From: Mycetocola manganoxydans
GTDB lineage: Bacteria > Actinomycetota > Actinomycetes > Actinomycetales > Microbacteriaceae
Direction: 5' to 3'
DNA length: 58,089 nt
NCBI RefSeq assembly: GCF_003667545.1
Contig: NZ_RCUV01000010.1
Span: 1 to 58,089, forward strand
The position numbers and the translations under genes are program-made. Shown one piece after another: positions 6,786 through 23,027 of this stretch (within the stretch, counting starts at the first letter, position 1; each line of letters starts with the position of its first letter). The notes under the pieces were generated by a model. The model was not told where the DNA came from. It did no database searches and saw nothing but the letters and a program-made list of their open reading frames with translations.

Positions 6786-6835
6786 CTACCGGCGCAGCGG
6801 TTCGACGATTCTCGCGAACGCGGCCGGGCTAGAGG

Positions 6836-7186
6836 TCAGAGGTCGCCGAGAAGCCCAGAGACGGTTTCGAGGGCGTGCGGCGCGAGGCTGTAGTACGCCC
6901 AGGTTCCGCGCTTCTCACGGTTGAGGTAGCCCGCACTGACGAGCACCTTGAGGTGGTGCGACACGGTGGGCTGGCTCAGGCCGAGCGGCTCGGTGAGATC
7001 ACAGACGCATGCCTCGGCATCCTCGTGCGAGGCGACAATGGATAGCAGCCTCAGACGCGCCGGGTCAGCCAATGCCTTCAGGGAGCGGGCAAGCTTTTCC
7101 GCTCCGTCGGCCTTCATCGGCTCTCGCGTTATCGGCGCACAGCAGTCGTTGAGGTCAGTGATCGGCAACAGCTCCGTTAACGACAT
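6836..7186 (-). CDS. arsR: ArsR-family arsenite-responsive repressor
   Basis: The 116-residue winged-helix protein has the ArsR/SmtB core: LARSLKALADPARLRLLSIV, then the recognition helix GLSQPTVSHHLKVLVSAGYL. Metal-site cysteines are visible as C15-C16 near the N-terminus and C60/C62 in ACVCDL. The N-terminal pair with a third cysteine matches the trivalent As(III) site known from Corynebacterium glutamicum ArsR. It should bind DNA as a dimer without arsenite and release on binding it. It is divergent from acr3 and shares a 94-base region with it that holds two inverted repeats, one over its own probable promoter. GGAGG lies eight bases before the ATG. Confidence 0.9.
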   Translation of the reverse strand: MSLTELLPITDLNDCCAPITREPMKADGAEKLARSLKALADPARLRLLSIVASHEDAEACVCDLTEPLGLSQPTVSHHLKVLVSAGYLNREKRGTWAYYSLAPHALETVSGLLGDL

Positions 7187-7206
7187 GTGGACAGCCTCCG
7201 CTTATA

Positions 7207-7220
7207 TTGACAATCGTCAA
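7207..7220. promoter_or_regulatory. inverted repeat, probable ArsR operator on the arsR side
   Basis: TTGACAATCGTCAA is a TTGAC-N4-GTCAA inverted repeat about 20 bases upstream of the arsR start. It is next to a TATAAG-like -10 sequence read on the minus strand. The position suits autorepression of arsR. Confidence 0.5.
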
Positions 7221-7237
7221 TGCAATAGTCAGAATGT

Positions 7238-7268
7238 GTATCGACAGTGATCAATCTATCACCGATAC
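7238..7268. promoter_or_regulatory. nested inverted repeat, probable operator of the acr3 operon
   Basis: Outer arms GTATCG (7238-7243) and CGATAC (7263-7268) enclose GTGAT (7247-7251) and ATCAC (7258-7262). The repeat ends 12 bases before the acr3 start, so a bound repressor would block transcription or early elongation. GGAG at 7273-7276 is the ribosome binding site. Confidence 0.45.
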
Positions 7269-7280
7269 CCACGGAGCTGA

Positions 7281-8390
7281 ATGTCGACGCCTGACCCCGC
7301 CAACCCACAGCCCGCAAGACTTGGAGCGACTGACCGACTTCTGCCGGTCTGGATTCTCGCCGCGATGGCCCTCGGGCTGGCTCTAGCCGTCTTTATTCCG
7401 GCATTCGGTGAGGCATTGCACAGCTTCTCGATCGGATCGGTCAGTGTTCCGATCGCTATCGGGTTGCTCGTGATGATGTACCCGGTGCTCGCAAAGGTCC
7501 GGTACTCCGATGCTCGTGCTATCGCCGGCGATCGCAAGCTCCTGATTTCGTCGCTGGTGATGAATTGGCTTCTCGGACCCGCCCTGATGTTCGCCCTGGC
7601 GTGGGCGTTCCTTCCGGATCTGCCGGAGTATCGGACCGGTCTCATCATCGTCGGCCTTGCCCGGTGTATCGCGATGGTGCTCATCTGGAACGACCTCGCT
7701 TGCGGGGACCGTGAAGCCGCAGCGTTCCTCGTCGCCGTGAACTCGGTGTTCCAGGTCATCGCGTTCTCGGCCCTCGGCTGGTTCTACCTTCAGATTCTTC
7801 CGACATGGCTGGGCCTGCCAACCACGAGCGCATCGTTCTCGATCTGGGCGATCACCCTCAGCGTGCTTGTGTTCCTTGGCATCCCGTTGCTCGCCGGGTA
7901 CCTCTCCCGGAAAATCGGCGAGAGAACCCGTGGTCGGGCCTGGTACGAAGACGCTTTCCTCCCGAAGGTCGGCCCGTTCGCCCTTTATGGGCTGCTGTTT
8001 ACGATCGTGATGTTGTTCGCCCTTCAAGGCCAGCAGGTGATCGACCGACCGCTCGACGTCGTGCGAATCGCTGTTCCCCTCCTGGTGTACTTCACGGCCA
8101 CTTTCTTCATCGGCTTCGTCCTCGGCAAGCTGATCGGGCTGTCGTATGAACGCACGACGACGCTGGCGTTCACGGCAGCAGGAAACAACTTCGAGCTCGC
8201 GATCGCCGTCGCGATCGGCACCTTCGGGGCGACCAGCGGCCAGGCCCTCGCCGGGATCGTCGGCCCGCTGATCGAAGTACCCGTCCTTGTCGCGCTGGTT
8301 TACGTCGCGCTGTGGCTCCGCCCACGCATGTTCCCCGTTGTTTCCCCGGCCAGCGTAGAATCCGAGCTCCCGGTCACGGACCGGGTCTAA
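7281..8390 (+). CDS. acr3: ACR3-type arsenite efflux transporter
   Basis: The 369-residue integral membrane protein has about ten hydrophobic helices. It carries the ACR3 signature GLARCIAMVLIWNDLACGD, with its conserved cysteine in a membrane segment, and a later AFTAAGNNFELAIAVAIGTFG motif. The family exports As(III) from the cytoplasm using the membrane potential and belongs to the BART superfamily, distinct from ArsB. It is the first gene of a five-gene run transcribed away from arsR, so it should be induced by arsenite. The two arsenate reductases downstream would supply its substrate. Length is typical of the family. Confidence 0.93.
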   Translation: MSTPDPANPQPARLGATDRLLPVWILAAMALGLALAVFIPAFGEALHSFSIGSVSVPIAIGLLVMMYPVLAKVRYSDARAIAGDRKLLISSLVMNWLLGPALMFALAWAFLPDLPEYRTGLIIVGLARCIAMVLIWNDLACGDREAAAFLVAVNSVFQVIAFSALGWFYLQILPTWLGLPTTSASFSIWAITLSVLVFLGIPLLAGYLSRKIGERTRGRAWYEDAFLPKVGPFALYGLLFTIVMLFALQGQQVIDRPLDVVRIAVPLLVYFTATFFIGFVLGKLIGLSYERTTTLAFTAAGNNFELAIAVAIGTFGATSGQALAGIVGPLIEVPVLVALVYVALWLRPRMFPVVSPASVESELPVTDRV

Positions 8391-8417
8391 ATCCCACCCC
8401 GAAAGAGAGAGAATCCG

Positions 8418-8828
8418 ATGAGTGCGAAACCGTCCGTCCTGTTTGTCTGCGTTCACAACGCCGGCCGTTCCCAGATGGCCGCCGGCTACATGACCGCTCT
8501 GTCAGGCGGACAAGTCGAGGTGCTGTCTGCGGGCTCAGAACCGAAAGACCAGATCAACCCGATCGCTGTCGAAGCCATGGCCGAAGAGGGCATCGACATC
8601 GCCAACAACACTCCGAAGATCCTCACCACCGAAGCGGTGAAAGACTCCGACGTCGTCATCACCATGGGCTGCGGTGACACCTGCCCGATCTTCCCCGGCA
8701 AGCGTTACGAAGACTGGGAACTCGAAGACCCCGCAGGCCAGGGCATCGAATCGGTCCGCCCCATCCGTGACGACATCAAGGCTCGCATCGAGCAGCTGCT
8801 GTCCGAGATCCTCCCGGCGAAGGCGTAG
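8418..8828 (+). CDS. arsC: arsenate reductase, low-molecular-weight phosphatase fold
   Basis: The 136-residue protein begins with the phosphatase P-loop CVHNAGRS (nucleophile C11). It has C85 and C89 in GCGDTCP and a DPAGQ acid loop. It reduces As(V) to As(III). Thioredoxin-linked ArsC proteins use three cysteines in similar positions, while actinobacterial mycothiol-linked forms need only the first; the sequence alone does not settle which applies. A thioredoxin reductase two genes on favours a thioredoxin link. The gene starts 27 bases after acr3 with a purine-rich AAAGAGAGAG leader. Confidence 0.9.
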   Translation: MSAKPSVLFVCVHNAGRSQMAAGYMTALSGGQVEVLSAGSEPKDQINPIAVEAMAEEGIDIANNTPKILTTEAVKDSDVVITMGCGDTCPIFPGKRYEDWELEDPAGQGIESVRPIRDDIKARIEQLLSEILPAKA

Positions 8829-8835
8829 ACGCATC

Positions 8836-9504
8836 ATGCTTGACGTGAGCTCCCGCCGTGGTCTGCCTGGGCTGACCTACCCCGAAGAACACCTCCGACG
8901 ACTCGCCGTTGACCTGTCCGACAAGTTCGCCGGGGTCTTCAATCAAGAGACGGTGGAGCGCTACGTTCTCGAGTCGTATACGGCGCTTCTGCGCACGGCA
9001 ACCGTCAAGGCGCACCTGGCGACGAACACTGTCCACTTCGCGACGGACCGCCTGACCGCGCTCGCCCAGGCAAAAGGTGCATTCGACCACTCGGTTCCCG
9101 AAGTGCTCTTCGTGTGCGAACAGAACGCCGGACGCAGTCAGATGGCCGCTGTGCTCACGCAGGCGCTGAGTGGCGGTGCCGTTCACGTTCGGTCGGCGGG
9201 CTCTGCACCCGCTCGGGAACTCAGCAGCACCGTCGTCGCGGCGATGGCTGAGATCGGACTGGACCTCGACGAGGCCTTCCCCAAGCCCCTCACCGACGAC
9301 GTGGTACAGGCCGCAGACGTGGTCATCACGATGGGATGCGGAGACGCCTGCCCCATCTACCCGGGCAAGCGTTACCAGGACTGGGAACTCATCGACCCGG
9401 CAGGCCAGCCCATCGAGGTGGTTCGCGAGATCCGGGACCAGATCAAATCCAACGTCGAAGGCATGCTCGCCTCGCTCGCCGTCACCCCGAAGGAACAAGT
9501 GTGA
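8836..9504 (+). CDS. arsC: long arsenate reductase with N-terminal helical domain
   Basis: The start is ATG 8836, seven bases after the previous stop; a longer in-frame extension into arsC exists but is not needed. The 222-residue protein has an N-terminal helical domain of about 85 residues (EEHLRRLAVDLSDKFAGVFN, then ETVERYVLESY). A phosphatase-type ArsC domain follows, with P-loop CEQNAGRS (C94) and GCGDACP. The same two-domain form occurs in other actinobacterial ArsC proteins, where the helical part is thought to aid dimerisation. Its stop overlaps the start of trxB, so the two are translationally coupled. It differs enough from the first arsC to be a paralogue rather than a recent duplicate. 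Confidence 0.88.
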   Translation: MLDVSSRRGLPGLTYPEEHLRRLAVDLSDKFAGVFNQETVERYVLESYTALLRTATVKAHLATNTVHFATDRLTALAQAKGAFDHSVPEVLFVCEQNAGRSQMAAVLTQALSGGAVHVRSAGSAPARELSSTVVAAMAEIGLDLDEAFPKPLTDDVVQAADVVITMGCGDACPIYPGKRYQDWELIDPAGQPIEVVREIRDQIKSNVEGMLASLAVTPKEQV

Positions 9505-10484
9505 CTATCGAAAACGTCGTCGTCGTCGGGTCGGGCCCTGCTGGCTATACAGCAGCCATCTATCTGGCGCGGGCGGGCCTGAGCCCTCTCGTGCTGACGA
9601 GCTCTGTAGAGGCGGGCGGTGCCCTCGTGAACACCACAGAGGTCGAGAACTTCCCGGGCTTCCCCGACGGCATCATGGGTCCGGAACTGATGGAGAACAT
9701 GCGACAGCAGGCCGAGCGCTTCGGAGCTCGCGTGGTTTACGACGACGCCGTCAAGCTTGACCTAGATGGAGACGTGAAAACGATCGCAACAGGGTATGGC
9801 ACCACGTTTTCGGCGCATGCCGTCGTCTTGGCCATGGGCTCCGCCTACCGCAAGCTTGGCATCGAAGGCGAACAACGCCTCACTGGTCGAGGTGTCTCCT
9901 GGTGCGCAACTTGTGACGGGTTCTTCTTCCGCAATCAGGACATCGTCGTCGTCGGCGGCGGAGACTCCGCTCTCGAAGAAGCAATGTTCCTTACCCGGTT
10001 CGCCAACACGGTCACCCTTATCCACCGCCGGGACAGTCTTCGCGCATCCAAGATCATGCAAGAACGAGCCTTCGCGAATCCGAAAATCATTACGCGATGG
10101 AACAGCGAAGTGGTTGAAGCGCATGGCGACGAGAAGATGACGGGGCTGACGGTCCGTGACACTGTTTCCGGTGAACTGTCCGAGCTAAATGCCACCGGCC
10201 TATTTATCGCGATCGGTCACGACCCTCGAAGCGAACTCGTGCTCGGACAGGTCACCGTCGACGACGAGAACTACGTCATCGTCGACCACCCCACCACCCA
10301 CACCAACCTGACCGGTGTCTTCGCCTGTGGGGACTTGGTCGATCACCGCTATCGCCAGGCCATCACCGCGGCAGGAACGGGCTGCTCCGCAGCTGCCGAC
10401 GCCGAGCACTATCTAGCCGTGAGCGGACTCGCCAGCTACCCGCAGCAGGAAACAGCGGTACTCGACGACGCCGTCGCCCGCTAG
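9501..10484 (+). CDS. trxB: thioredoxin-disulfide reductase
   Basis: GTG 9501 overlaps the arsC2 stop by four bases (GTGA). The 327-residue flavoprotein has an N-terminal FAD-binding VVVVGSGPAGYTAAI motif and the redox pair C135-A-T-C138 in GVSWCATCDG. It also has an NADPH-binding VVVGGGDSALEEA motif and the C-terminal FAD motif GVFACGDLVDHRYRQ. This is the standard low-Mr TrxR layout. It would reduce thioredoxin, and through it the arsenate reductases. No thioredoxin gene is in the cluster, so a chromosomal one elsewhere must serve. This is likely a second, island-borne TrxR. Confidence 0.9.
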   Translation: MTIENVVVVGSGPAGYTAAIYLARAGLSPLVLTSSVEAGGALVNTTEVENFPGFPDGIMGPELMENMRQQAERFGARVVYDDAVKLDLDGDVKTIATGYGTTFSAHAVVLAMGSAYRKLGIEGEQRLTGRGVSWCATCDGFFFRNQDIVVVGGGDSALEEAMFLTRFANTVTLIHRRDSLRASKIMQERAFANPKIITRWNSEVVEAHGDEKMTGLTVRDTVSGELSELNATGLFIAIGHDPRSELVLGQVTVDDENYVIVDHPTTHTNLTGVFACGDLVDHRYRQAITAAGTGCSAAADAEHYLAVSGLASYPQQETAVLDDAVAR

Positions 10485-10502
10485 AAGGAAGAGAGACGAA
10501 CC

Positions 10503-11852
10503 ATGACCCTCGCACAACTGCCAACGCTGACTGCCCCCTCGTCCCGCAAGCTCGACGGTCTACCGGTCGCGATCATCGGTGCAGGACCCGTCGGTCTAGC
10601 TGCTGCGGCCCAACTACTCGAGCGTGGCGTTGACGTCATCGTCTTCGAGGCTGGGACGTCTGCCGGAGCATCCGTCGCGGCCTGGGGCCACACGCGACTG
10701 TTCTCACCCTGGGAGTACCTCGTCGACGAAGCAGCCGGCCGGCTCCTCGACAAGACCGACTGGCAAGCGCCTGCCGCCAAGAAGCTGCCGTTTGGTCGCG
10801 AACTCGTCGACGACTACCTGCTCCCCTTGGCTGCAACCCCGGAACTGGCCCCACGCATCCGGTATTCGAGCACCGTCACCGATGTAAGCCGTCAGGGCAT
10901 GGACCGCACTCGCTCCGCCGGCCGCGGAAGTACCCCCTTCCTTCTCCGTGTCCAGAGCGCAGGAGCAACCTTCGAACAGTTCGCTCGCGCCGTGATCGAC
11001 GCATCAGGTACCTACAGCACGCCGAACGGGCTCACCGCTAGCGGGCTCCCACCGATCGACCCGGACAGCATCCGAAAGAACGTCACGCATGCGCTTCCCG
11101 ACGTTCTCGGCGCAGATAGAGGGCTCTTCGCCGGCAAGCACACGCTCGTTGTTGGGGCAGGTCACTCAGCGGCTAATACGCTGCTGAAACTCGCCGTGCT
11201 TGCTCGAGAAGACGACCGCACCTCGATCACCTGGGCGATCCGCGGTGCGAGCCCCGTGCGGGCGTACGGATCGACGAATGACGAACTCGAAGCACGTGGT
11301 CAACTAGGCGATTCTGTCCACGATCTCGTTCGCCGCGGTCAGGTGGCCTTGGTTGATCGATTCGAGATCGATGATCTCCGGCCAGCAACGGATGATCGCG
11401 TCCAGGTGCGCGGACGCCGTCGTGGCGAGACCTCGATCATCGAGGCCGACCAGGTCGTCAACGCCACCGGTTTCCGACCGAACCTCGAGATGCTGCGCGA
11501 GATCCGCCTGTCGCTCGACGAGATCGTCGAGGCACCGCGCGCCCTCGCACCACTGATCGACCCGAACATGCACAGCTGCGGGACCGTGTATCCGCACGGA
11601 GTTGCAGAACTCGCACACCCGGAACCCAACTTCTACATCGCGGGAATGAAGAGCTACGGCCGGGCGCCGACGTTCCTTCTCCTCACCGGTTACGAGCAGG
11701 TCCGGTCGATTGCTGATGAGCTTGCCGGCAACCATGGTGCCGCCCGCCAGGTTCAACTCGTTCTACCCGAGACCGGTGTCTGTTCCACCGCAGCACCCAC
11801 GGAGAACGGCGAGTCGAGCCCGGAAGCCTCAGGCTCTGCCTGCTGCCGGTAG
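10503..11852 (+). CDS. ars-associated FAD/NAD(P)-binding oxidoreductase
   Basis: The 449-residue protein opens with a Rossmann motif (VAIIGAGPVGLAAAAQLLER, then GVDVIVFEA). A second lies near residue 215 (HTLVVGAGHSAANTLLKLAV). The late ATGFRPNLEML motif completes a flavin-monooxygenase-like two-nucleotide fold. The C-terminus ends in a serine-rich tail with a CC pair. Flavoproteins of this kind, sometimes called ArsO, recur in ars operons, but their reaction is not settled. It follows trxB by 18 bases and is the last gene of the acr3 operon. Confidence 0.75.
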   Translation: MTLAQLPTLTAPSSRKLDGLPVAIIGAGPVGLAAAAQLLERGVDVIVFEAGTSAGASVAAWGHTRLFSPWEYLVDEAAGRLLDKTDWQAPAAKKLPFGRELVDDYLLPLAATPELAPRIRYSSTVTDVSRQGMDRTRSAGRGSTPFLLRVQSAGATFEQFARAVIDASGTYSTPNGLTASGLPPIDPDSIRKNVTHALPDVLGADRGLFAGKHTLVVGAGHSAANTLLKLAVLAREDDRTSITWAIRGASPVRAYGSTNDELEARGQLGDSVHDLVRRGQVALVDRFEIDDLRPATDDRVQVRGRRRGETSIIEADQVVNATGFRPNLEMLREIRLSLDEIVEAPRALAPLIDPNMHSCGTVYPHGVAELAHPEPNFYIAGMKSYGRAPTFLLLTGYEQVRSIADELAGNHGAARQVQLVLPETGVCSTAAPTENGESSPEASGSACCR

Positions 11853-11910
11853 AAACGCTCATGGCTGGCCGGACCGCCCCTGTTCACTCACGTGGAATAG
11901 AATCCCGCAC

Positions 11911-12246
11911 ATGGCCTCTCCTGCACGCGAGTTCGACACAGCCGGAGCTTCAAGCGCCCCAGCTGGCTCGCTCGGTCGCGACGAGGCGGAAACTCTTGCC
12001 CGGACGCTCCGGGCTGTCGCTGATCCCACACGTCTTCAAGTGCTCAGCATCATTTCTCACAGCCCGGACGGAGAAATCACCGTCGGTGACCTGGCGCAGC
12101 ATCTGGGACTCAGACAGCCTACGGTCAGCCATCATCTGCGCATCATGGTCGGTGACGGTCTCTTGGCCCGCGATCAGCGTGGCCGAAACGCCTGGTATTC
12201 AATCGTCGAATCTCGCCGCGCCGACATCGCCGATCTCATTCGCTAG
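11911..12246 (+). CDS. second ArsR-family regulator, without cysteines
   Basis: ATG 11911 opens a 111-residue winged-helix protein with the ArsR core (TLARTLRAVADPTRLQVLSI) and recognition helix (GLRQPTVSHHLRIMVGDGLL). It contains no cysteine at all, so it cannot sense arsenite through thiols as the first ArsR does. It may sense another ligand, or partner the fusion protein encoded 10 bases downstream. It lies 58 bases after the flavoprotein gene, possibly under its own promoter. The longer in-frame extension upstream runs into the flavoprotein gene and is not needed. Confidence 0.82.
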   Translation: MASPAREFDTAGASSAPAGSLGRDEAETLARTLRAVADPTRLQVLSIISHSPDGEITVGDLAQHLGLRQPTVSHHLRIMVGDGLLARDQRGRNAWYSIVESRRADIADLIR

Positions 12247-12255
12247 GCAGGCGCT

Positions 12256-13239
12256 GTGAACGACTATCCACGTCGTCCACTGACCATGGACCCGACCACC
12301 GCCGCGGCCCGTGCACAACAGGTGGCGGCGCTGGCCAACCCTGATCGCTTGCGCCTCCTGAGCTCGCTCGTCACCGACCCGGAATCCACGCACACCTCCG
12401 CAAGCCTGGCCGAGCTGCTAGACGAATCAGTCGCGGCCATCGACGGCCATCTCGCCGAGCTTCTCGCTGCCGGGTTGGTCGAGATCGGCCCGGGGGGTGC
12501 CGGTCCGACATTCCGCCCCTCTCCCGACGCGTGGGTGCGCTTTGGTCGGCTGCTGAGGGGAAAGTCGGGCTATCAGGAGCCTGTCGCGACCGGCGCCGCG
12601 TCGCCGCCACCCGGTGAGTTGCCTCCCGTGATCCTGAAGATCGCCGAGCGCCTCGCGTATCGGTTCAGCAGCCACTTCTCCCGCGAGACCGTGACCCGCT
12701 ACGTTGCCGAAAGCTATGCGCTACTGAGCGAGCGGGCGACCGTCACCCGTCACCTTCCATCGCTAACCAGTCGATTCGCTACCGACAGGCTGGGGGCGCT
12801 CGCGACCGCGAACGGATTCAACCTGACCGGGGCCCCTGAGGTTCTCTTCGTCTGCGTACAAAATTCCGGGCGCTCACAAATGGCAGCCGGGATTCTTCGC
12901 CAACTGGCCGGCGACCGGGCGAACGTGCGGACGGCAGGTTCACAACCCGCGACCCAGATCGACGAACGGATAGTGGACGCCCTCGATGAAATCGGAGTGC
13001 CGATCATCTCGGAATTTCCGAAGCCCCTCACCGATGAAGTTGTCCAGGCAGCGGATGTCGTCATCACCATGGGCTGCGGCGACGCCTGCCCGGTCTACCC
13101 CGGTCGACGATACTTGGACTGGGCTATCCCGGACCCACTTGAACTGTCGACAGAAGGCATCCGCGCCGTTCGCGACGAAATCCAGTCTCGCGTCGAGGGG
13201 CTATTGCGATCGCTCAACATCGCCGTTCGACCGAATTAG
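12256..13239 (+). CDS. ArsR-type HTH / helical domain / arsenate reductase fusion
   Basis: The 327-residue protein joins three parts. Residues 12-100 are an ArsR-like winged helix (QQVAALANPDRLRLLSSLVT). Residues 120-190 are the helical domain also seen in arsC2 (RFSSHFSRETVTRYVAESYA). Residues 195-325 are a phosphatase-type ArsC with P-loop CVQNSGRS (C200) and GCGDACP. It could be an arsenate reductase that also binds DNA, or a regulator using the catalytic site as a sensor. Both are inference. The HTH part lacks obvious metal-site cysteines. GTG 12256 follows the cysteine-free ArsR by nine bases, and the gene ends in a four-base convergent overlap with the pst-linked regulator. Confidence 0.85.
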   Translation: MNDYPRRPLTMDPTTAAARAQQVAALANPDRLRLLSSLVTDPESTHTSASLAELLDESVAAIDGHLAELLAAGLVEIGPGGAGPTFRPSPDAWVRFGRLLRGKSGYQEPVATGAASPPPGELPPVILKIAERLAYRFSSHFSRETVTRYVAESYALLSERATVTRHLPSLTSRFATDRLGALATANGFNLTGAPEVLFVCVQNSGRSQMAAGILRQLAGDRANVRTAGSQPATQIDERIVDALDEIGVPIISEFPKPLTDEVVQAADVVITMGCGDACPVYPGRRYLDWAIPDPLELSTEGIRAVRDEIQSRVEGLLRSLNIAVRPN

Positions 13240-14015
13240 CCGCGCAACCGGTAGCCGAGTCCTCGCACGTTCTCCAGCACCGACGGTCCACCCGCAATAC
13301 TCACGCCGTCGAGCTTCTTCCTCAGCCGAGTGAGGTGTACCCGCGTCGCCGCATCTGTGCTGTCTTCGTAGATGTTCGCAGCCTGGGTCAATTCTTCGAC
13401 AGTCACCACTCGAGGATGATTTCTCATGAGGTAGCGCAGAAGCTCAAACTCGCGTGGCGTCACGTTGACGTCATTGCCGTCGACGGTGAGCCTGTGAGCT
13501 TGCGGGTCAAGCGTGAGCGGTCCGATCCGCATCGAGACTGTCGACGAATCAGCCGTGAACCCCATCTGACGTACCGCCATGGAGATCTGGTCAGCGTTGA
13601 ACGGCAGCGCCAAAATCGATCGAGCTCCGGCCTCCAGCGCCTGGAATGCACGCTCCCCCGCTCCCGGTTCACTGCCCAGGCCGACGACCACTGGAATCTC
13701 GGTCCAGGTGACGACGGCGGTGACGAACCGGACAAGATCGATCTCTGCCATATCCGTCGGGGCCACGACGAGGGCAGGTTCGTCCTTCAACAGACCGATG
13801 AGAGCACCGGTGCCTTCTGAATAGGGCATGAGGTCGATGCCCCGTGAGAACAACGCCTCCGGGGCATCGCTGGTGATGACGGTGGCCGAATCGATCACCA
13901 GTACTCTTAGCGGCCATCTCAGAGTCGGCAGACCCATGTGGGTGGCACCAGCATGCGCATACGCAAACTCCGCCGCGGCCGAGTCCCCCCGTTTCGTCGG
14001 CCGAACCTGCGTCAT
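13236..14015 (-). CDS. OmpR/PhoB-type winged-helix regulator with degenerate receiver, pst-linked
   Basis: The 259-residue protein has a C-terminal OmpR-type DNA-binding domain ([20 protein letters not shown], then [11 protein letters not shown], ending in the typical [11 protein letters not shown]). Its N-terminal half folds like a receiver ([11 protein letters not shown]), but the strand that should carry the phospho-accepting Asp reads [13 protein letters not shown], so canonical phosphorylation is doubtful. It follows pstB with a four-base ATGA overlap, as the last gene of the pst operon. It may therefore control phosphate uptake. No histidine kinase is adjacent. Its stop overlaps the stop of the convergent ArsR-ArsC fusion gene (TTAG). 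The first 30 residues are poorly conserved, so a later start at [10 protein letters not shown] is possible. Confidence 0.75.
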
Positions 14016-14917
14016 CCGAAGCGCCCGGAGATGTAGTCCTCTGTGCGCTGATCACGCGGGTCTTCGAAGATCTGCGTCGTTCTTCCGAATTCCACCAGCA
14101 CGCCGGTGCGGTCCCCGGTCCCCTTATCGGCCAGAGCGGTGAAGAACGCCGTCCGATCCGCGACCCGGGCTGCCTGCTGCATGTTGTGTGTCACGATGAC
14201 GATTGTGTAGTCCTGACGGAGTTCCTGCATGAGGTCTTCGATCCGCATTGTCGCGATCGGGTCGAGGGCTGAACACGGTTCGTCCATCAGGATGACATCG
14301 GGCTTCACGGCGATCGTCCGAGCGATGCACAGACGTTGCTGCTGACCACCCGAGAGCCCGAATGCGGACTGCTTGAGCTTGTCCTTAACCTCGTCCCAGA
14401 GCACGGCTTTGGTGAGAGCCTCCTCGACCAGGTCGTCCATCGAATCCACCTTCATGCCGGTGACCCGCGGGCCGTATGCGATGTTGTCGTAGATCGACTT
14501 AGGGAAGGGGTTGGGCTTCTGGAACACCATTCCGATCCGGCGCCTGACTTCAATCGGGTCGACACCCTTGCGGTAGATGTCCTCACCCATGAAAAGAACA
14601 TCACCGTCAACACGAGCGCCGTCAACGAGGTCGTTCATGCGGTTCAGCGATCGAAGGAGGGTCGACTTGCCACACCCGGACGGGCCGATGAGTGCAGTTA
14701 TCTCGTTCCGCCCGAACTCAAGGTTGACTCCAGTCACCGCCCTGAATTTGCCGTAGTACACGTCGACGTCCTTACAGCTCATGACGCCGACAGGAACATC
14801 GGGGATCGAGCGTGCTCGTGCTTTGCGCTCGAGTTCGATGGCGAGCTCGTGGAGAGCTTCTGGTTCGTCGTCTCGGAGATCTTGGGTGGTCATTTCTGGC
14901 CTGTCTATAGAAGTCAT
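14012..14917 (-). CDS. pstB: phosphate ABC transporter ATP-binding protein
   Basis: The 301-residue ABC ATPase has Walker [10 protein letters not shown], the PstB-type [16 protein letters not shown]-loop, signature LSGGQQQR, Walker [13 protein letters not shown], and H-loop VTHN. It powers high-affinity phosphate import through PstA and PstC. The N-terminal extension of about 40 residues is longer than usual; a second ATG at codon 9 is a possible start. It is four bases downstream of pstA, and its stop overlaps the regulator gene. Confidence 0.95.
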
Positions 14918-14920
14918 GTG

Positions 14921-15816
14921 TCACCAACGTGTCTGGAAGTGGTTGCGGATATAGATCGCGATGCCGTTCATCACGACGAGGAGAACGAGCAGCACGATGC
15001 TGGTCGCTGCGGCGAGTTCGTGGAAGCCTTCCTGCGGGCGCCCGGTCCAGTTGAAGATCTGAATCGGCATGGTGGAGAAACCGCTGAGGAGTCCGTTGGG
15101 GTCAAAACTGACGAACACTAGCGCGCCTAGAAGCAGAAGGGGCGCCGCTTCGCCGATAGCCCGTGACAACGCCAGGATGGAGCCGGTGGCGATCCCGGGT
15201 ACTGCCGAGGGGAGGACATTACGCCACACGGTTTGCCATTGGCTGGCTCCGAGAGCGAGTGATCCCTGCCGAATCTCTTCCGGCACCGACCGGATCGCCT
15301 CCCGTGTAGCGATGATGATGACGGGGAGGATAAGAAGGCTGAGAGCGAAGGCCCCGCCGATGACGATGTTCTTGTCCTGGACTCCGATTGCTGAGAGGAA
15401 AGCGAGGGCGAGCAAACCGTAGACGATCGATGGCACAGCGGCGAGGTTCTGCACGTTGAGTTCGATGAACCGGTTGTGCCACCGCTTCTTGTCCGCGAAC
15501 TCCTCCAGATGAATCGCGGCCGCAACACCCAGAGGAATCGTAAGGACTGCCGTCGTTGCGATCACCCAGATCGATCCAAGAATCGCGGGCCGGGCTCCCG
15601 CCCGATCCGGGTCGGACGCCGGGTACTCCGTGAAGAGGGCCGGAGTCAGGCGCGCGAAACCTTCCAACAGGATGTTCGTGATCAACGTCATCAGGAAGAG
15701 GATCGCGATGACGAGGCTGAGCCACAGCAGAGTCATGAAGACGAGCGACTTCACTCCCCGTTCGCCCCGGCCTGACGAAGCCAAATCACTGGCTTTAAGA
15801 GTCTGAGTGCTGACCA

Positions 15817-15817
<1 letters not shown>
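14921..15817 (-). CDS. pstA: phosphate ABC transporter permease PstA
   Basis: The 298-residue protein has six membrane segments and the inner-membrane permease EAA-like loop IRQGSLALGASQWQTVWRNV, which contacts PstB. With PstC it forms the phosphate channel. The ATG overlaps the pstC stop by one base, so the two are coupled. Confidence 0.93.
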
Positions 15818-16773
<956 letters not shown>

Positions 16774-16810
16774 TGTGTGCTTTCCGGAGTCGAGGTTGAG
16801 TGGTGGTGGG

Positions 16811-17788
16811 TTACTCGGAGACCAGCGAAGCCAGCTCCTCAGTTGCTGTCGTCTTCTGCTCCTCGGTCAGGCCGATGTACAGAGCGGCTTCGGCAATTTC
16901 AGCTTCGTTCTCGACGTAGAAGTCGACGTACGACCGAACCTGCTCCTTGTCGGCATACGACTCGTTCGCTACGTAGATGAAAAGCTCGCGGCCGAGGGGT
17001 GTGTATGTGCCGTCCTGAACGGTCTCAGCGGTCGGGGCAACGCATCCAGCACCGCCATCGATTTCCAGTGCCTTCACCGAGTCGGGATTCTCCTCGACAT
17101 AGGACAGGCCGAAGAAGCCCATAGCGCCTTCGTCGCCGGAGACGCCCTGGATGGTGATGTTGTCGTCTTCTGACGGGCTGTAGTCAGCGCGAATCGCGCC
17201 TTCCTCGCCGTTGATGGCATCCGTGAAGTAGTCGAAGGTTCCTGAATCGGTGCCTGCACCGAACAGGCCGAGAGGAATGTCAGGGAATGACGGGTCGACT
17301 TGGTTCCAGTTTGTGATCTCGCCCTCTGACTCAGGGCCCCAGATTGTTGCGAGCTGCTCCACCGTCAGGCAGTCGACCCAATCGTTCTCCGGGTTGACGA
17401 CGACGGAGAGACCGTCGTTGGCGATGACGATCTCGGTGTACTCGATACCGGCGGCCTCACATTCGGCGATTTCCTCTTCCTTGATCTCGCGCGATGCGTT
17501 TGAAATGTCGGTTTCTCCCGCGCAGAACTTCTTGAATCCACCGCCTGTGCCGGAGGTGGCCACGGTGACATTGATGTCGGGCTCGACATCCCGGAAGAGG
17601 TCAGCGGCAGCCTCGCTGAGCGGAGCGACAGTCGACGAGCCGTCAACTGTGACCGAGCCGGAGAGGCCTCCTGCCTCGGCATTGGCGTTATCTGCACCTG
17701 AGCTTTGCCCGCCACAGGCGGTGAGCAGGAGTGCGGCAACGCTGAGGCTTGCCGCCAATCCCAGAATTCGGATGGATTTCTTCGACAC
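16811..17788 (-). CDS. pstS: phosphate-binding lipoprotein PstS
   Basis: GTG 17788 is preferred, since GAAGGG lies seven bases upstream; a TTG at 17803 is the alternative. The product begins with a lipoprotein signal ending in the lipobox LLTACGG (C25). It then has phosphate-ligand motifs of the family: VDGSSTVAPLSEAAADLF, TSGTGGGFKKFCAGETDISN and GTDSGTFDYFTDAI. It captures phosphate at the outer face of the membrane and hands it to PstCA. It is the first gene of the operon, with two identical-type palindromes upstream. Confidence 0.93.
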   Translation of the reverse strand: MSKKSIRILGLAASLSVAALLLTACGGQSSGADNANAEAGGLSGSVTVDGSSTVAPLSEAAADLFRDVEPDINVTVATSGTGGGFKKFCAGETDISNASREIKEEEIAECEAAGIEYTEIVIANDGLSVVVNPENDWVDCLTVEQLATIWGPESEGEITNWNQVDPSFPDIPLGLFGAGTDSGTFDYFTDAINGEEGAIRADYSPSEDDNITIQGVSGDEGAMGFFGLSYVEENPDSVKALEIDGGAGCVAPTAETVQDGTYTPLGRELFIYVANESYADKEQVRSYVDFYVENEAEIAEAALYIGLTEEQKTTATEELASLVSE

Positions 17789-17854
17789 TGTGTGGCCCTT
17801 CAAGTTCGCGAATCGCTTCGCGTCGGTTGAATGTGATGACGGAACCGTCTTAAC

Positions 17855-18164: not shown

Positions 18165-19046
18165 ATGCCTGAGCCCGACTCGCCCGATCTGACCTATGGG
18201 TCAGCAGCCTGGCTCGATGAAATCGAAAGCTTCGCCACTGACACGGCAGTTTTCGCAGCTCGCTCCACCCCATACACGGGTGCTGAGCTCAAGCGCGCTT
18301 TGACGCAAATCATCAACTGGTCGATCGATCTTTATCTGCCGGTCCATCCTGATGACCTTCTAACGGAGATCAGGATCTCGTCGTTCATCGCCAATGGTCT
18401 TCCCGGCTATACGGACGCGAGCCGCTCGAACCAGCGGGCACAACTTCGTGCCATACGGACCGCGTTAGATCGCCCCCGAACTGCCGAACCGCTCTCATCA
18501 GCGGACCCCTCCGCCCCGTACGTAAAGTCAGACATCCGTCGGTTGCAATCGTGGGCCGCTGCTCAGGCAACCGAGGAGTTACGACGCGATGCGCGAAGCG
18601 TCCTCAGCCTTGGCATCGGGGCCGGGCTAGCAGCCGGTGAGATAGCCGATCTACGTGGCAATGCGATCCGGATTGACGCCCAAGGTGTGCAAGTCGTTGT
18701 CGAGAATAAACGACCGAGGACGGTGCAGATCCGGCGCGAGTGGGAAGAGCCGCTAATCGATCATGCGAGATTCGCAGCAGCTGACCACTATTTCATCCGG
18801 CCAGAACGAACGACGAGTTCACGCAACTTCCTGAACGGCCTGATAGAAAAAAGTCTCGGACCCGACTTCCGTCCGCAAAGTCAGCGCATGCGAGCGACCT
18901 GGATCGTCGAGCATCTAACGCTTGGGACGCCGATGGGTGTATTGATGGAAGCGGCAGGGGTTCAGTCGCTGGAAGCGTTTACGCGGTTTATGCAGTTTGT
19001 TCCTGCGGTACCGGGACGCAACGCCCGCGCGCTGCTCCGAACTTAG
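18165..19046 (+). CDS. tyrosine-recombinase-fold protein without nucleophile (paralogue 1)
   Basis: The 293-residue protein aligns along its length with the second integrase-like protein of this locus. Its C-terminal half keeps the integrase-type layout: LGIGAGLAAGEIADLRGNAI, then QRMRATWIVEHLTLGTPMGV, then a final helix. R243 is kept, but the first catalytic Arg is replaced (GAGLAAGE), the His/Trp box reads AGV, and the nucleophilic Tyr position is F275 in FTRFMQF. It therefore should not cut DNA like XerC or XerD. A DNA-binding or architectural role is inferred. ATG 18165 has no strong ribosome binding site. Confidence 0.65.
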   Translation: MPEPDSPDLTYGSAAWLDEIESFATDTAVFAARSTPYTGAELKRALTQIINWSIDLYLPVHPDDLLTEIRISSFIANGLPGYTDASRSNQRAQLRAIRTALDRPRTAEPLSSADPSAPYVKSDIRRLQSWAAAQATEELRRDARSVLSLGIGAGLAAGEIADLRGNAIRIDAQGVQVVVENKRPRTVQIRREWEEPLIDHARFAAADHYFIRPERTTSSRNFLNGLIEKSLGPDFRPQSQRMRATWIVEHLTLGTPMGVLMEAAGVQSLEAFTRFMQFVPAVPGRNARALLRT

Positions 19047-19150
19047 AACGCCACGATCGGCGCCTCACCCGGAACCACACGTATACCGATTCCGCGGACA
19101 GACGGTCTCGGCATCGCGTTCGATCGTCGGGCTTCTCTAGCGCTCGACAA

Positions 19151-19681
19151 TCAACGGGGCAGGAGGGCGTCGGCTCCCCCGCCGACAGGCGGCGCCTTCG
19201 CGTTGGCGTGTCCGAATGGAAACTCAGCCAGCCATCTTCGGATGGACTCAAACCGTTGGGACCAGAAGAAGAGGTCGAAGAGCTGCAATGTCGTCTCTCC
19301 CCGCAATTGTCGCGACAATCTGTCATGGACGACTCCTCCTCTTGTCCGAGGATCCTTCGAATAGGCGTAGACCGATGTACCGCTATCTCGGATTGCTCGG
19401 TTGAGTCGGTGCGCAAACTCGTGCTGGAACTGAGCCGCCTGATATCGAGCGTCCCCTTCTTTGACATCTACCGCCGGGCGGAGCCATTGCGCTCCTTTTC
19501 CGAACCGCTTCGGTTCGTCAAACAGATCGCGCGGCTGATAGGTGGAGCGTTTAGAGGCTTGAGACACGTCGCTACCATAGCGAGATTCGACAAGACTTCT
19601 CAGCGGAACCAATAAGTTGTGGCAGATACTCAGTATTTTGTCGGTAAACCGTTGCAATTGGCCTGTGTGACCGCACCACAT
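19151..19681 (-). CDS. small helix-turn-helix-like protein of the recombinase locus
   Basis: The frame encodes up to 176 residues. Its middle (QFQHEFAHRLNRAIRDSGTS, then a VVHDRLSRQLRGETTLQLFD stretch) resembles small Xre-like DNA-binding proteins of actinobacterial mobile loci. No catalytic motif is visible. The start is uncertain: ATG 19681 gives the whole frame, while a GTG near VSQASKRSTYQ would drop about 38 residues. It lies downstream of the xre-type gene on the same strand, with a 79-base gap, and could be co-transcribed with it. Confidence 0.5.
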   Translation of the reverse strand: MWCGHTGQLQRFTDKILSICHNLLVPLRSLVESRYGSDVSQASKRSTYQPRDLFDEPKRFGKGAQWLRPAVDVKEGDARYQAAQFQHEFAHRLNRAIRDSGTSVYAYSKDPRTRGGVVHDRLSRQLRGETTLQLFDLFFWSQRFESIRRWLAEFPFGHANAKAPPVGGGADALLPR

Positions 19682-19760
19682 GCTGATTCGTCGGAATAGC
19701 CGCTATGTGAATATCAACTACGACACCGCACTCGATCCCGCGACGCGGGCCCGCTTCCGA

Positions 19761-20039
19761 TCAGCCGCGCTTGGCCGGGAAAAGTGGTTCTCCGAGAGCT
19801 TCTTCCAGACGGACGATGGTCACCAAGTCGGGCCAGGACTCGCCGGCGGCAACGCTACTCAACACCTCATGATGGACACCGCTCAGCCTGCTGATCTCGC
19901 GGTAGCTGCGACCGCCCATCGCTTCCACGACGTTCCTCGCAAAAAGGCGAGCAGCCTCCGCCACCGGGTCGTCGCTAGCGACATACGGCCACGAGACACA
20001 CAGCTGCGCTGGGGACGGACGGCCGGGACGCGGGGACAT
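19761..20039 (-). CDS. Xre-family helix-turn-helix regulator
   Basis: The 92-residue product carries a helix-turn-helix (RSYREISRLSGVHHEVLSSV, then AAGESWPDLVTIVRLEEALG) typical of Cro/CI-type repressors. It is read away from the second integrase-like gene, and an 18-bp palindrome (20108-20125) lies between them. Repression of that gene and of itself is the simple reading. An overlapping plus-strand frame extends the integrase-like gene through this region but looks like a shadow. Confidence 0.6.
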   Translation of the reverse strand: MSPRPGRPSPAQLCVSWPYVASDDPVAEAARLFARNVVEAMGGRSYREISRLSGVHHEVLSSVAAGESWPDLVTIVRLEEALGEPLFPAKRG

Positions 20040-20107
20040 GGCTCAAGCCTAGTAAGCCTTGTCGGCCGCTTCGACGGCCCGATGTCAGAGGCGGATGGTG
20101 CACTGGT

Positions 20108-20125
20108 TGTCGATACTTATCGACA
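20108..20125. promoter_or_regulatory. 18-bp palindrome between xre and the integrase-like gene
   Basis: TGTCGATA-CT-TATCGACA is a perfect inverted repeat. It lies 69 bases from the xre start and 26 bases before ATG 20151. It is probably the operator of the Xre-type regulator. Confidence 0.5.
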
Positions 20126-20150
20126 CTGCACTGAGGAGTCGCTCGCCCAG

Positions 20151-21041
20151 ATGGAAAATTACAAGCCGCGTATGAAGAACAAGTACTGGCGCGAAGTAGG
20201 ACCATTCGTCCGCGACAGCGTGGCGGTTGCGGCGCCGTCGACGGCCTACACGGCTCACCGTCTGCTTACACCTGTCGCCACGTACACTCTGTGGGCTTGG
20301 CGTGACGCAGGCTTGCCGCTCGAAGCAGACGTACTCTTCCAGCGCGAAACCATCGAGCACTTCATCAGATCCGCGTCCGGCACGCTGAGCGAGGGGACAC
20401 TGCGCAACTACCGGTCGATGCTTCTCCGGGTTTCCGATGTCCTCGTACCGGAATGCAGCCCGCTCGCCATGAAACCGCTCAACGACCGCGCGAGCATCGC
20501 CCCTTACTCGGAGAAAGAGCTCGCGCGACTCCGAAACTGGGCCATGGGTCAAAGTACAGAGACCAGACGACGCAAGGCGGCGATGATGCTTTCCCTGTGT
20601 GGAGGAGCAGGTCTCAAAGCGGTTGAGGTGGCCGAATTGCGGAGGGAACACGTCTCGATCGATGCCGACGGCATCCTGGTTCAAGTTGAGTCCGGTAACG
20701 TGCGGGTGATCCCGCTTCTCGCCGAGTGGGAAAGTTGGTTGGTCCGAGGTCTAGGCGACACTGCGGCAGGCCATCTCGTCTTCGGTGCACCGACTCGCAA
20801 ACACTCAAGGAACGTGCTGAGCGCGTTCGTCGACAAAGCAGACGGGGTGGAGCACCCGCGTAGCGACCGACTTCGTGCGACCTGGATCTTGACCCACCTC
20901 ACGGCCGGTACCCCGATGAAGGGGCTCATGAAAGCGGCGGGAGTTTCGAAGTTCGAGAACCTCAGCCGTTACCTCCAGTACATCCCCGAGCTGGACACCG
21001 CTGACTACCGCCGTCGTCTCCGAATCGAGGCAACGCGATGA
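20151..21041 (+). CDS. tyrosine-recombinase-fold protein, paralogue 2, partly degenerate
   Basis: ATG 20151 gives 296 residues, matching the length of paralogue 1; ATG 20082 is an alternative, and the long frame reaching 19680 overlaps the xre gene. The N-terminal half (WREVGPFVRDSVAVAAPSTA) resembles a core-binding domain. The C-terminal half has LSLCGGAGLKAVEVAELRRE, then RLRATWILTHLTAGTPMKGL and RYLQYIPE. R242 and the nucleophile-position Tyr (Y274) remain, but the first Arg is Lys (K156) and the HxxR and GH boxes are lost. Its stop overlaps the DDE-type gene start (ATGA), implying joint function. Confidence 0.65.
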   Translation: MENYKPRMKNKYWREVGPFVRDSVAVAAPSTAYTAHRLLTPVATYTLWAWRDAGLPLEADVLFQRETIEHFIRSASGTLSEGTLRNYRSMLLRVSDVLVPECSPLAMKPLNDRASIAPYSEKELARLRNWAMGQSTETRRRKAAMMLSLCGGAGLKAVEVAELRREHVSIDADGILVQVESGNVRVIPLLAEWESWLVRGLGDTAAGHLVFGAPTRKHSRNVLSAFVDKADGVEHPRSDRLRATWILTHLTAGTPMKGLMKAAGVSKFENLSRYLQYIPELDTADYRRRLRIEATR

Positions 21042-22717
21042 GCGCTCAGCACGTCGACGCTGGCAAAGCCGAGGCTTGGATGCTTGAAGCCTTTGGCATG
21101 TCACTGGACGAGTACAAGGACAACCAGTACGGCAGATTTCCGCTTGCGTACATCACGACCGCGAAACGGATCGTCGAGCGCTCCGGGGTCGGCCCGGTGC
21201 TTGAAGAGTGGTTCGCTGAAGAACGCAAGGGCGTGGCTGGCCGAAAGGCTGACATCAGCATGCAGGCAGTCCTCATCGTCCTTCTCATGCACGTGCTTGA
21301 TGGCCGCGGCGTCGTGTTCACCAAGATGGCGGAGACTCTTGCCAACCGCCTTGAACCGGGCGACTTTGCCCTCATCGGCATCAAAGCTTCCGAAGGATCT
21401 GAGAAGGAATGGTTCCACCGTTTATGGAGGAGCGCCCAGAAGCTGATCAAATTGGTCGACTCTCGACCGGCCCCGCGCCACAAGAAACTCAAAAAGAATC
21501 AGTTCGCAAAACTTCTCGCGGCACTTGACCAGCCCATGTGCGATCTCAAGGAAACACGCATGCGATGGATGTGCAACCAGTTGGTCGAAGGCTCCGTCAG
21601 TCTCATGCCAAGAGAGGTGATGCGTCGCTACAAGGGCAACCTGGCGATCGACGCAACGCGTGTTGACATCCTCGGTAAGGCCGGCAATCCCGGAAAGGGC
21701 AAGGACCACAAGAAGAGGCGAAGCATCGATGTTTTCGCAGGTTACTGGCGCCGTGGCGGTAGCCACGGTGGCACAGGCCGCCGAACCGAAATCTGGTCGT
21801 ATGAACTCGAGCTTGGCGTTTGGGTTCGCAACACACCGGACGGCCCTGATGAGTTCCCTCTCGTCGCCTCAGCCGTTGGTTTCCATCAGCCGGGCAAAGT
21901 CAGGGGTGAGGGGCTCCTACTCTTGAATTCCATCCGCGACCGTGGCCATGCGATCGGGACCCTCATGTCGGACCGCGCGTACGTTCCCAGCGCGCGCCCC
22001 GAAGAACTCCAGGCTCCGGCCCGAGCTATGGGTTGGATCTTTGTCGCTGACTACAAAAAGACTCAGCTCGGGCTGCAAGCATGGCACGAAGACGCCATTT
22101 TGGTTGACGGCACTTGGTACGTGAAGTACATGCCACAAACCCTCATCAACGCAACAGCGGACTCCCGCAACGGTCGGATCGATAAGAAAACGCGAAATGG
22201 CCGTCTCGAGGCGCGCATTCCATACATGCTCAAGCCAAAGGGCCGCCCCGACCCCGAAGGTTACCAGCGGTTCTCCTACCCTCCCGTGGGCTCCTACTCC
22301 GCCGTCGAGCCCGTTAGCCAGAAGCACCTACGCGCCCCGAAAACCCCGAGCAGCCTCACGATTCCACCGAGCGCAGGCATGAAGTACCGTCAGCACCTGC
22401 AATACAACAGCAAGCCGTGGAAGAAGTGGTACGCGCTGCGAAACACGGTGGAATCATTCAACAAGTCTTTGAAGGACTCGAACGCCGAAGGCCTCGCGGA
22501 TCCCGGGAAGCGACCTGGCCGCGGATACACATTCGCGTTCCTCGCGAGCACTCTGGCCGTCGTCTCAGCCAACGTTCGGAAGATCGCAACCTTCATTCGG
22601 TCCGTCGTCGACCCCGTCCCGAGCAAGGCCCGCACCCGCGCGCCGCGCCGCGTCGATGTCATGAAGCGCTTCTTCTCCGAGGAGCACAGTCCCGCCATCC
22701 CGGCACCGCCGCAGTAA
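21038..22717 (+). CDS. DDE transposase-like protein, 559 aa
   Basis: The probable catalytic triad is visible: Asp in NLAIDATRVDIL (about residue 208), Asp in GTLMSDRAYVPSA (about 311), and Glu in LRNTVESFNKSLKD (about 472). This is an IS4/IS1182-like RNase-H-fold pattern. The span between the second Asp and the Glu is about 160 residues, with a large beta-rich insertion. The first 200 residues are helical and basic. No IS family can be named with confidence. It starts inside the stop of the integrase-like gene and ends just before a strong terminator. Confidence 0.65.
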   Translation: MSAQHVDAGKAEAWMLEAFGMSLDEYKDNQYGRFPLAYITTAKRIVERSGVGPVLEEWFAEERKGVAGRKADISMQAVLIVLLMHVLDGRGVVFTKMAETLANRLEPGDFALIGIKASEGSEKEWFHRLWRSAQKLIKLVDSRPAPRHKKLKKNQFAKLLAALDQPMCDLKETRMRWMCNQLVEGSVSLMPREVMRRYKGNLAIDATRVDILGKAGNPGKGKDHKKRRSIDVFAGYWRRGGSHGGTGRRTEIWSYELELGVWVRNTPDGPDEFPLVASAVGFHQPGKVRGEGLLLLNSIRDRGHAIGTLMSDRAYVPSARPEELQAPARAMGWIFVADYKKTQLGLQAWHEDAILVDGTWYVKYMPQTLINATADSRNGRIDKKTRNGRLEARIPYMLKPKGRPDPEGYQRFSYPPVGSYSAVEPVSQKHLRAPKTPSSLTIPPSAGMKYRQHLQYNSKPWKKWYALRNTVESFNKSLKDSNAEGLADPGKRPGRGYTFAFLASTLAVVSANVRKIATFIRSVVDPVPSKARTRAPRRVDVMKRFFSEEHSPAIPAPPQ

Positions 22718-22747: not shown

Positions 22748-22792
22748 AACCCGCTTACCGGACGCCCCGTCGCGCCCGATAAGCGGGTTTTC
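22748..22792 (+). terminator. rho-independent terminator after the DDE gene
   Basis: AACCCGCTTA (22748-22757) pairs perfectly with TAAGCGGGTT (22780-22789) around a 22-base loop, followed by a short T run. Confidence 0.7.
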
Positions 22793-22855
22793 GCGTTAAG
22801 AACAGACCAAACCGGAACAGTCGGCGCAAGTCGGGTGCCCTAATAGCAAACAAAG

Positions 22856-22890: not shown

Positions 22891-22943
22891 TCGCCGGTCA
22901 ATTTCGCGAACCCGAAACCGGATTCATCACGAACTACCCTCTG

Positions 22944-23027
22944 TGCGCGAGGGGGGACTTGAACCCCCACGTCCTTTCGAACACTGGCACCTGAAGCCAG
23001 CGCGTCTGCCAATTCCGCCACTCGCGC
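22944..23027 (-). tRNA. tRNA-Leu (CAG)
   Basis: The 84-base minus-strand gene has acceptor arms GCGCGAG/CTCGCGC, discriminator A, and an anticodon loop TTCAGGT with anticodon CAG. It also has a long variable arm and a T-arm GGGGGTTCAAGTCCCCC. CCA is not encoded. It marks the left edge of the core gene block, and its 3' end faces the mobile locus. Confidence 0.95.

Follow-up and report, generated by a model that had tools for sequence, protein, structure and literature searches.

Among DDE-type (Asp-Asp-Glu) transposases, the best-known examples of strictly targeted transposition so far are Tn7-like systems, which include an AAA+ ATPase, and Tn7 and CRISPR-associated transposons with TnsD or TniQ proteins attach at glmS, tRNA genes, and other sites. 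In the Tn3 family, TnpI of Tn4430 and TnpS of Tn4651 are catalytically active tyrosine resolvases, and these transposons are not known to home to tRNA genes. The report on the Tn7-like element Tn6022 (Faure et al. 2023) describes TnsF as a target selector with an inactivated tyrosine-recombinase domain, and also treats TnsC (PMC10293859). Here, we analyzed a window of 58,089 nt, one whole contig of the Mycetocola manganoxydans genome, in which two integrase-fold genes (INT1 and INT2) and a DDE transposase gene lie beside a tRNA-Leu gene. The original prediction, made for positions 18165–22717, was of a possible new mobile system in which the integrase-fold proteins had become target-choice or end-binding partners of the transposase. 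The window is likely to contain the core, at the right-hand side, of a DDE transposon that carries cargo and has tRNA genes as its homing sites, and we favor with some confidence a homing DDE transposon in which an inactivated tyrosine-recombinase partner acts as the tRNA selector. The features of the locus are as follows.

18165..19046, + strand: INT1, distal integrase-fold protein, 293 aa
19151..19681, − strand: HTHa, small conserved accessory gene, 176 aa, without family match
19761..20039, − strand: HTHb, HTH_3 (XRE-type) DNA-binding protein, by profile match
20151..21041, + strand: INT2, proximal integrase-fold protein, 296 aa, with a 4-bp overlap with the transposase start
21038..22717, + strand: DDE transposase, 559 aa, triad D205, D312, E472
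22899..22912: inner right-end repeat, inward GGTTCGCGAAATTG; the pair is weaker than in relatives (7/13 identical)
22920..22939: right terminus with outer repeat, inward GGGTAGTTCGTGATGAATCC
22940..22944: expected target duplication TCTGT, up to tRNA nucleotide 73, as judged from relatives
22943..23027, − strand: tRNA-Leu(CAG), insertion target, 226 bp past the DDE stop
6827..17803: possible cargo, arsenic-type genes and a pst-like operon, membership of the element unproven

All the reading frames described in the original prediction were present, with the INT2 start taken at 20151 (the mechanically longest open reading frame [ORF] starts at 19680). INT1 and INT2 are paralogous, as had been claimed (36% identity over 278 aa, E 3e-50), and the ATGA overlap between INT2 and the DDE gene is real (21038–21041). 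The predicted interval covers the core genes, which are bounded by the pst-like operon on one side and the tRNA-Leu(CAG) gene on the other; the element itself reaches beyond it, to a right end at about 22939 against the tRNA-Leu gene.

This arrangement recurs widely. Among 398 genomes of the host's family, the DDE protein was found in 47 (E ≤ 1e-20), from 31 of 85 genera, and searches of 396 genomes each of the order and the phylum (E ≤ 1e-15) identified relatives in 18 and 8 genomes, respectively, from other families, orders, and classes. The hosts include Homoserinimonas, Cryobacterium, Leifsonia, and Frigoribacterium. We mapped 40 of the 46 other positive genomes of the family, leaving out G039, G048, G150, G200, G219, and G260; some of these loci appear to duplicate named loci (e.g., L054 and L169) and are therefore not independent. 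At the 34 loci with a full-length DDE gene, among 41 examined with the window included, an integrase-fold gene lay upstream of the DDE gene in 33, overlapped it by 4 bp in 21, and was accompanied by a second integrase-fold gene in 18, with homologues of HTHb near 19 and of HTHa near 11. The whole gene order, or its INT–DDE core, was thus found in many genera and beside many tRNA genes, with defined ends and target duplications. One short contig (L049:2180-5661) contained two different DDE genes of the family in tandem behind two integrase-fold genes. When genome contigs were scanned, a single window protein as the query found no relative, a small alignment found 13 loci, and no relative occurred in viral contigs or phage records. 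In Streptomyces plasmids, there were seven matches, none spanning 80% of the query. Two of these copies (L219 and L220) have an opposite-strand helix-turn-helix (HTH) gene followed by two genes annotated "hypothetical protein," the second of which is the match; the first in L220 is 32% identical to INT2 (E 9e-22). Both plasmids are large and linear, and the L219 copy lies close to type I-E CRISPR cas genes.

That the genes are chance neighbours, or a stand-alone insertion sequence (IS) beside old integrase remnants, is scarcely credible given the near-constant proximal INT gene, the recurrent overlap, and the same arrangement in other orders and classes; no observation spoke for it, and we rejected it. 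Nor does the 559-aa protein belong to a known stand-alone IS family as far as Pfam and NCBIfam (E 10) and PHROGs and PADLOC (E 1) show, in which it had no curated match. A single-gene IS with its own ends inside 21.0–22.8 kb is not supported either: no left end was found to the left of the DDE gene, and the right end lies beyond 22.8 kb.

The family homes to tRNA genes. At all 38 mapped family loci that reach a tRNA gene (2 of the 40, L038 and L049, end before any), the nearest downstream tRNA was on the strand opposite to the DDE gene, at 202–287 bp from the DDE stop in 34 and at 106, 130, 141, and 642 bp in the others. The targets in the host's family were Leu-CAG, Leu-GAG, Met-CAT, Ser-CGA, Ser-GCT, Pro-GGG, Val, Ala-GGC, Ala-TGC, Arg-CCT, Lys-CTT, and Gln-TTG. 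In the more distant loci, an opposite-strand tRNA lay downstream in 28 of 31, among which five pairs overlap and L188 repeats a family locus; these added Lys-TTT, Pro-TGG, Glu-CTC, Tyr, and Ser-GGA. On an INT tree of 53 rows, built with a quick method, the tRNA isotype (10 states) required 14 changes, whereas none of 300 shuffles needed fewer than 20. When each genus was represented by a single element (25 rows, 9 states), 9 changes were required in the six listed of 20 draws, and across all 20 draws the 100 shuffles made for each never came down to the observed number. The isotype follows the element lineage on the tree, and the target therefore behaves as a property of that lineage.

Comparisons with empty sites define both ends. 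The tRNA-Leu gene occupied in G084 is empty in G242, of the same genus, revealing a clean insertion of approximately 9.0 kb between flanks of 90% and 95% identity, with the target-site duplication (TSD) TCCGT and the terminal inverted repeat (TIR) GGGTyrTTTGCAAAACTC. Its left junction reads ATGT TCCGT / GGGTCATTTGCAAAACTC and its right junction GAGTTTTGCAAACAACCC / TCCGT GCGCGAGG, continuing into the tRNA end. Reciprocally, the tRNA-Met gene occupied in G242 is empty in G084, where a 15.9-kb insertion is bounded on both sides by TTGGT (flanks 92% and 95%). In these two comparisons, no attB fragment of the tRNA was found at the left end. At the empty tRNA-Met site of G084 (L218, around position 17600), the ATGAGCC that precedes TTGGT equals the right terminus of the Met-type element L064, possibly the scar of a lost older element.

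When left ends were sought with the right-end sequence, both ends were accepted in 14 of 39 loci, giving elements of 4.1 (L044), 9.0 (L068), 9.1 (L034), 11.2 (L037), 15.9 (L064), 16.2 (L058), 16.5 (L062), 19.7 (L051), 20.3 (L066), 21.0 (L045), 23.2 (L046), 23.3 (L065), 25.3 (L052), and 28.4 kb (L047). Left-end scans demanding two spaced sites mostly failed, and a scan that scored the TSD is biased toward matching TSDs, so it was rerun with the TIR alone. This TIR-only scan of 38 loci gave a match scoring at least one above the null in 19. Matching flanking repeats accompanied 9 of these, 8 of them exact over 4 to 8 bp and that of L034 with a single mismatch; the other 10 had none. The accepted left ends are partly a matter of judgement, with two supported by empty sites. 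For L064 and L066, the best TIR-only place differed from the end accepted from the TSD-scored scan (that of L064 was then confirmed by the empty site). In the TSD-scored scan, L072 was flagged but dropped for its 3-bp repeat, and L062 was unflagged but accepted for its repeat; for L045, the 3.2-kb solution of that scan was replaced by the 21.0-kb one of the TIR-only scan.

In 12 of the 14 elements, tRNA nucleotide 73 is precisely the last base of the duplication (L044 and L045 are one base off under automatic numbering), which places the left-end cut between nucleotides 72 and 73; insertion in these relatives thus leaves the tRNA whole. The exact repeats counted from nucleotide 73 were 4 bp (L034), 5 bp (L037, L058, L064, L065, and L068), 6 bp (L047, L051, and L066), 7 bp (L046), and 9 bp (L052 and L062); those running into the GG(G) of the right terminus are probably 5 or 6 bp in true length, and the duplication in the relatives is approximately 5–7 bp. 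At the right ends, two copies of an 11–13-bp repeat, 22–23 bp apart, adjoin the tRNA. A pair with at least 9/12 identities at this spacing occurred in 21 of 39 loci, against a maximum of 1 in 200 shuffled sets, and the repeat sequence varies between lineages.

The left flank ahead of the duplication resembles a right end in L062, L052, and L064, and L062:1181-1906 is an older DDE remnant to the left of a newer element at the same tRNA. Such a position would result if each newcomer landed between the tRNA and the copy already there, and this sequence pattern suggests that tandem stacking at one tRNA may be a route to island growth. In G385, a 4.06-kb mini-element beside tRNA-Leu (L044) is complete at its two ends and flanked by GTGGT duplications, but its DDE frame is only 265 aa long and there was no integrase match at E 1e-5; it was probably moved in trans or has decayed.

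The claimed tyrosine-recombinase layout of the INTs held up. Phage_integrase matched 13 of 20 family members at E ≤ 0.01, the family profile matched a solved XerC/XerA-like recombinase structure (E 2.2e-9), and the predicted model of INT2 (predicted local distance difference test [pLDDT] 85.6) has a helical N-domain and a mixed C-domain. In the window, INT2 scored 26.4 bits against Phage_integrase, slightly below the cut-off of 27.1, and INT1 matched no Pfam family even at E 10. The active site is another matter. In a table of 56 INTs, in which the catalytic Lys was not scored and the L064 INT was counted as distal since its DDE frame was uncalled, none had the catalytic His of HxxR, and none had His or Trp at the second position; Arg I was absent in 40 and kept in 16, Arg II was kept in 55, and Tyr in 32. 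In INT1, Ala stands in place of Arg I and Phe in place of Tyr, and neither histidine is present; INT2 retains Arg II and Tyr but has Lys at the Arg I position and lacks both histidines. Active recombinases without Arg I exist; to our knowledge, none lacks all the residues lost here. Judging from these residues, the integrase-fold proteins appear to be inactivated tyrosine recombinases.

The DDE protein shows the opposite pattern. The triad named in the original prediction was confirmed, with D205 kept in all 35 sequences and D312 and E472 each in 34. In the predicted model (pLDDT 72.5), D205 lies on strand 202–210, D312 just past strand 308–311, and E472 in helix 459–479, preceded by a strand-rich insertion, and the order of strands and helices fits an RNase H-like fold. 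A strand-rich insertion before the last catalytic helix is the layout of IS4/Tn5-type enzymes. The best profile matches were weak (DDE_Tnp_1_6, E 0.013; DDE_Tnp_1, E 0.019; each in 2 of 15 members) and prove little by themselves, because the unrelated DUF5994 model scores about as well (E 0.0061 in one member). Against PDB sequences, the single match was an unrelated chain (E 1.7), and TnsB-type profiles gave none; no dedicated search for relatives of TnsA, TnsC, or TniQ was made in the elements. Since the INTs have lost catalytic residues, the DDE triad is kept, and TSDs differ at one tRNA, we infer that the DDE protein would do the strand cutting and joining.

The alternative that the INTs are a real integrase, with the short repeat as its crossover core, the inverted repeats as core-binding arms, and the DDE gene as a passenger, is very improbable. 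The 3′ ends of tRNA genes are typical integrase attB sites, inverted arms around a short core would mimic a TIR with a TSD, and the flanking repeat does vary in length. However, the catalytic residues are lost in the INTs and kept in the DDE protein, only 5 bp are duplicated in the G084/G242 pair with no tRNA fragment at the left end, and L064 and L066, whose right ends are nearly identical and whose target tRNA is the same, are flanked by different repeats (TTGGT and TCTGT, respectively), although within each element the two sides match. A recombinase core should not vary between such elements.

In the mechanism we propose, the DDE protein would cut and join the strands, and the operon-linked INT, with its histidines lost and Arg I usually lost, would bind the tRNA gene and/or the 22-bp-spaced right-end repeats and so deliver the transposase to the tRNA end; the second INT paralogue and the HTH proteins may be accessory binding or regulatory parts. 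Integrases of the tyrosine-recombinase fold often recognise tRNA ends. This habit, together with the almost constant operon pairing, a fold retained although catalysis was lost, and the TnsF precedent, argues by analogy for an inactivated INT as the selector of the tRNA target. The predicted mobile system with integrase-fold partners is upheld in its recurrence, defined ends, and TSDs, and the exact role of the INTs would be target choice, end binding, or both.

The main competing explanation, which we regard as possible but distinctly less probable, is that the DDE protein itself recognises the tRNA end and the INTs are end-binding, architectural, regulatory, or cointegrate-resolving accessories, for which TnpI and TnpS of the Tn3 family offer a comparison. 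The paired right-end repeats are spaced like protein-binding sites, some INTs keep Tyr, and the target isotype is tracked no less well by the DDE tree than by those of the INTs (9, 10, and 5 changes for the DDE, proximal-INT, and distal-INT trees, respectively), so that tree tracking was uninformative as a pointer to an INT selector and singles out no protein. Conversely, the complete loss of both catalytic histidines and the frequent loss of Arg I make catalytic resolution unlikely, and well-studied homing DDE transposons use a separate selector, TnsD in Tn7 and TnsF in Tn6022 (the latter in PMC10293859).

Several further observations, like the undiscriminating trees, weigh against a tRNA-homing transposon with an INT selector. 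Both Tyr and Arg I survive in some INTs, and the INT tree is weakly resolved, with 17 of 50 inner branches open. The idea that the right-end repeats mimic the tRNA T-arm was rejected (best match 7.67/14 on average, against 7.25 in shuffles). The duplication length varies among elements, no left end was accepted in 25 of the 39 loci, and in the window, neither the left end nor the left TSD copy was found in the contig, the best scores being similar to those from the reverse-strand null or from shuffled sequence. A tRNA was absent in 3 of the 31 distant loci, one of them a contig-edge fragment, and none occurred within approximately 13 kb of L219 and L220, two of the seven Streptomyces plasmid copies, which suggests a second, non-tRNA landing mode or transport by plasmids. 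With these points included, we still lean, somewhat less firmly than for the selector itself, toward a phylum-wide group of homing DDE transposons in which tRNA-reading integrases were domesticated as dead address readers, in an origin independent of Tn7, with different lineages reading different isotypes and inserting at 72/73.

At the window locus, five genus mates align near the tRNA-Leu only from 22931–22941 rightward, that is, from the tRNA 3′ end, and in one of the five (G004) this tRNA gene has a DDE remnant next to it. The window copy may extend past the start of the contig, or its left end may have decayed. The candidate cargo at 6827–17803 comprises an SBF permease, LMWPc and ArsR-type domains, flavoproteins, and a phosphate-binding/ABC (pst-like) operon; because the left end was not found, these arsenic and phosphate genes at 6.8–17.8 kb can be regarded only as candidates. 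None of the five genus mates had a pstS match at E ≤ 1e-40. Within this stretch, the arsenic-type genes lie beside a Trans_reg_C-domain gene and the pst-like operon, and parts of the arsenic-type stretch occur near the same tRNA in G001 and G003, in reverse orientation. As for the two minus-strand genes predicted to be HTH-type, HTHb bore this out (HTH_3, 26.1 bits, cut-off 23), was the sole one of the five window proteins above a curated Pfam cut-off, and is probably a regulator by its profile; the label is unverified for HTHa, which had no family in Pfam, NCBIfam, PHROGs, or PADLOC. At 22757–22892, and at the same place in several relatives, G+C-rich hairpins followed by T runs were seen by eye only; lying between the DDE stop and the right end, they are possible terminators between the element and the tRNA.

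Cargo ORFs were called with a crude script in 12 elements, 10 of them with ends lacking an empty-site check, and 76 of the 89 non-core proteins of at least 150 aa, from 11 delimited elements, were scanned, with 25 of 318 PADLOC and 25 of 58 Pfam names listed. Among the matches listed were type II and III methyltransferases, a type II restriction enzyme, AbiU, PDC candidates, Vsr, Fic, ApeA-type and AAA proteins, SBF (ACR3-like) permeases, cation efflux proteins, and an E1-E2 ATPase; one protein had an rve domain. Judged by name, restriction, abortive-infection, and metal-transport families are represented in the cargo. SBF permeases accounted for 3 of the 76 proteins among the matches listed, which fits the SBF gene of the window as cargo.

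If this reading is correct, the family offers a compact two-protein system for targeted integration that needs no ATPase or guide RNA and a simple setting in which to study communication between a selector and a DDE transposase. It would also suggest that retired integrases took on target selection more than once, and would account for a class of islands with defence and metal-resistance genes found next to tRNA genes in actinobacteria. A targeted DDE transposon with a dedicated selector is a known kind of element. For the transposase lineage and target class seen here, no description was found in the open-access full-text literature (with few subscription papers and no preprints), and DDE relatives are annotated as "hypothetical protein" in two Streptomyces plasmid records.

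Compared with known systems, the family shares with the DDE_Tnp_1 transposases of IS4/IS5/IS1182-like elements weak profile matches and the strand-rich insertion of the model, but it differs in its two-component operon and site-specific homing. Genomic islands integrated by tyrosine integrases likewise use tRNA 3′ ends, carry accessory cargo, and stack, whereas the ends here have a TIR and a short duplication. Tn3-family elements also combine a DDE transposase with a tyrosine-recombinase-fold protein; here, however, the INTs lack the catalytic set and the elements home to tRNAs. Tn7-like elements similarly make programmed insertions beside an essential gene and build cargo islands, but their DDE family is different as far as profiles show, and insertion here abuts the tRNA 3′ end itself. 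The premise of the original prediction that DDE transposases normally work without integrase-fold partners needs qualifying, since TnpI, a tyrosine resolvase of the Tn3 family, and TnsF of Tn6022 (the latter in PMC10293859) are precedents. Dada elements, reported to be eukaryotic DNA transposons that prefer tRNA or snRNA genes (PMC3706591, PMC8869645), share the tRNA preference but are eukaryotic, and are likened by description only. The closest precedent, by analogy, would be TnsF: Tn6022 is also reported to be a DDE transposon that homes to one site with the aid of a protein containing an inactivated tyrosine-recombinase domain, with a target duplication (PMC10293859). The likeness to TnsF is by description only, and what sets the present family apart is an INT gene coupled directly to the DDE gene and the tRNA ends as targets.

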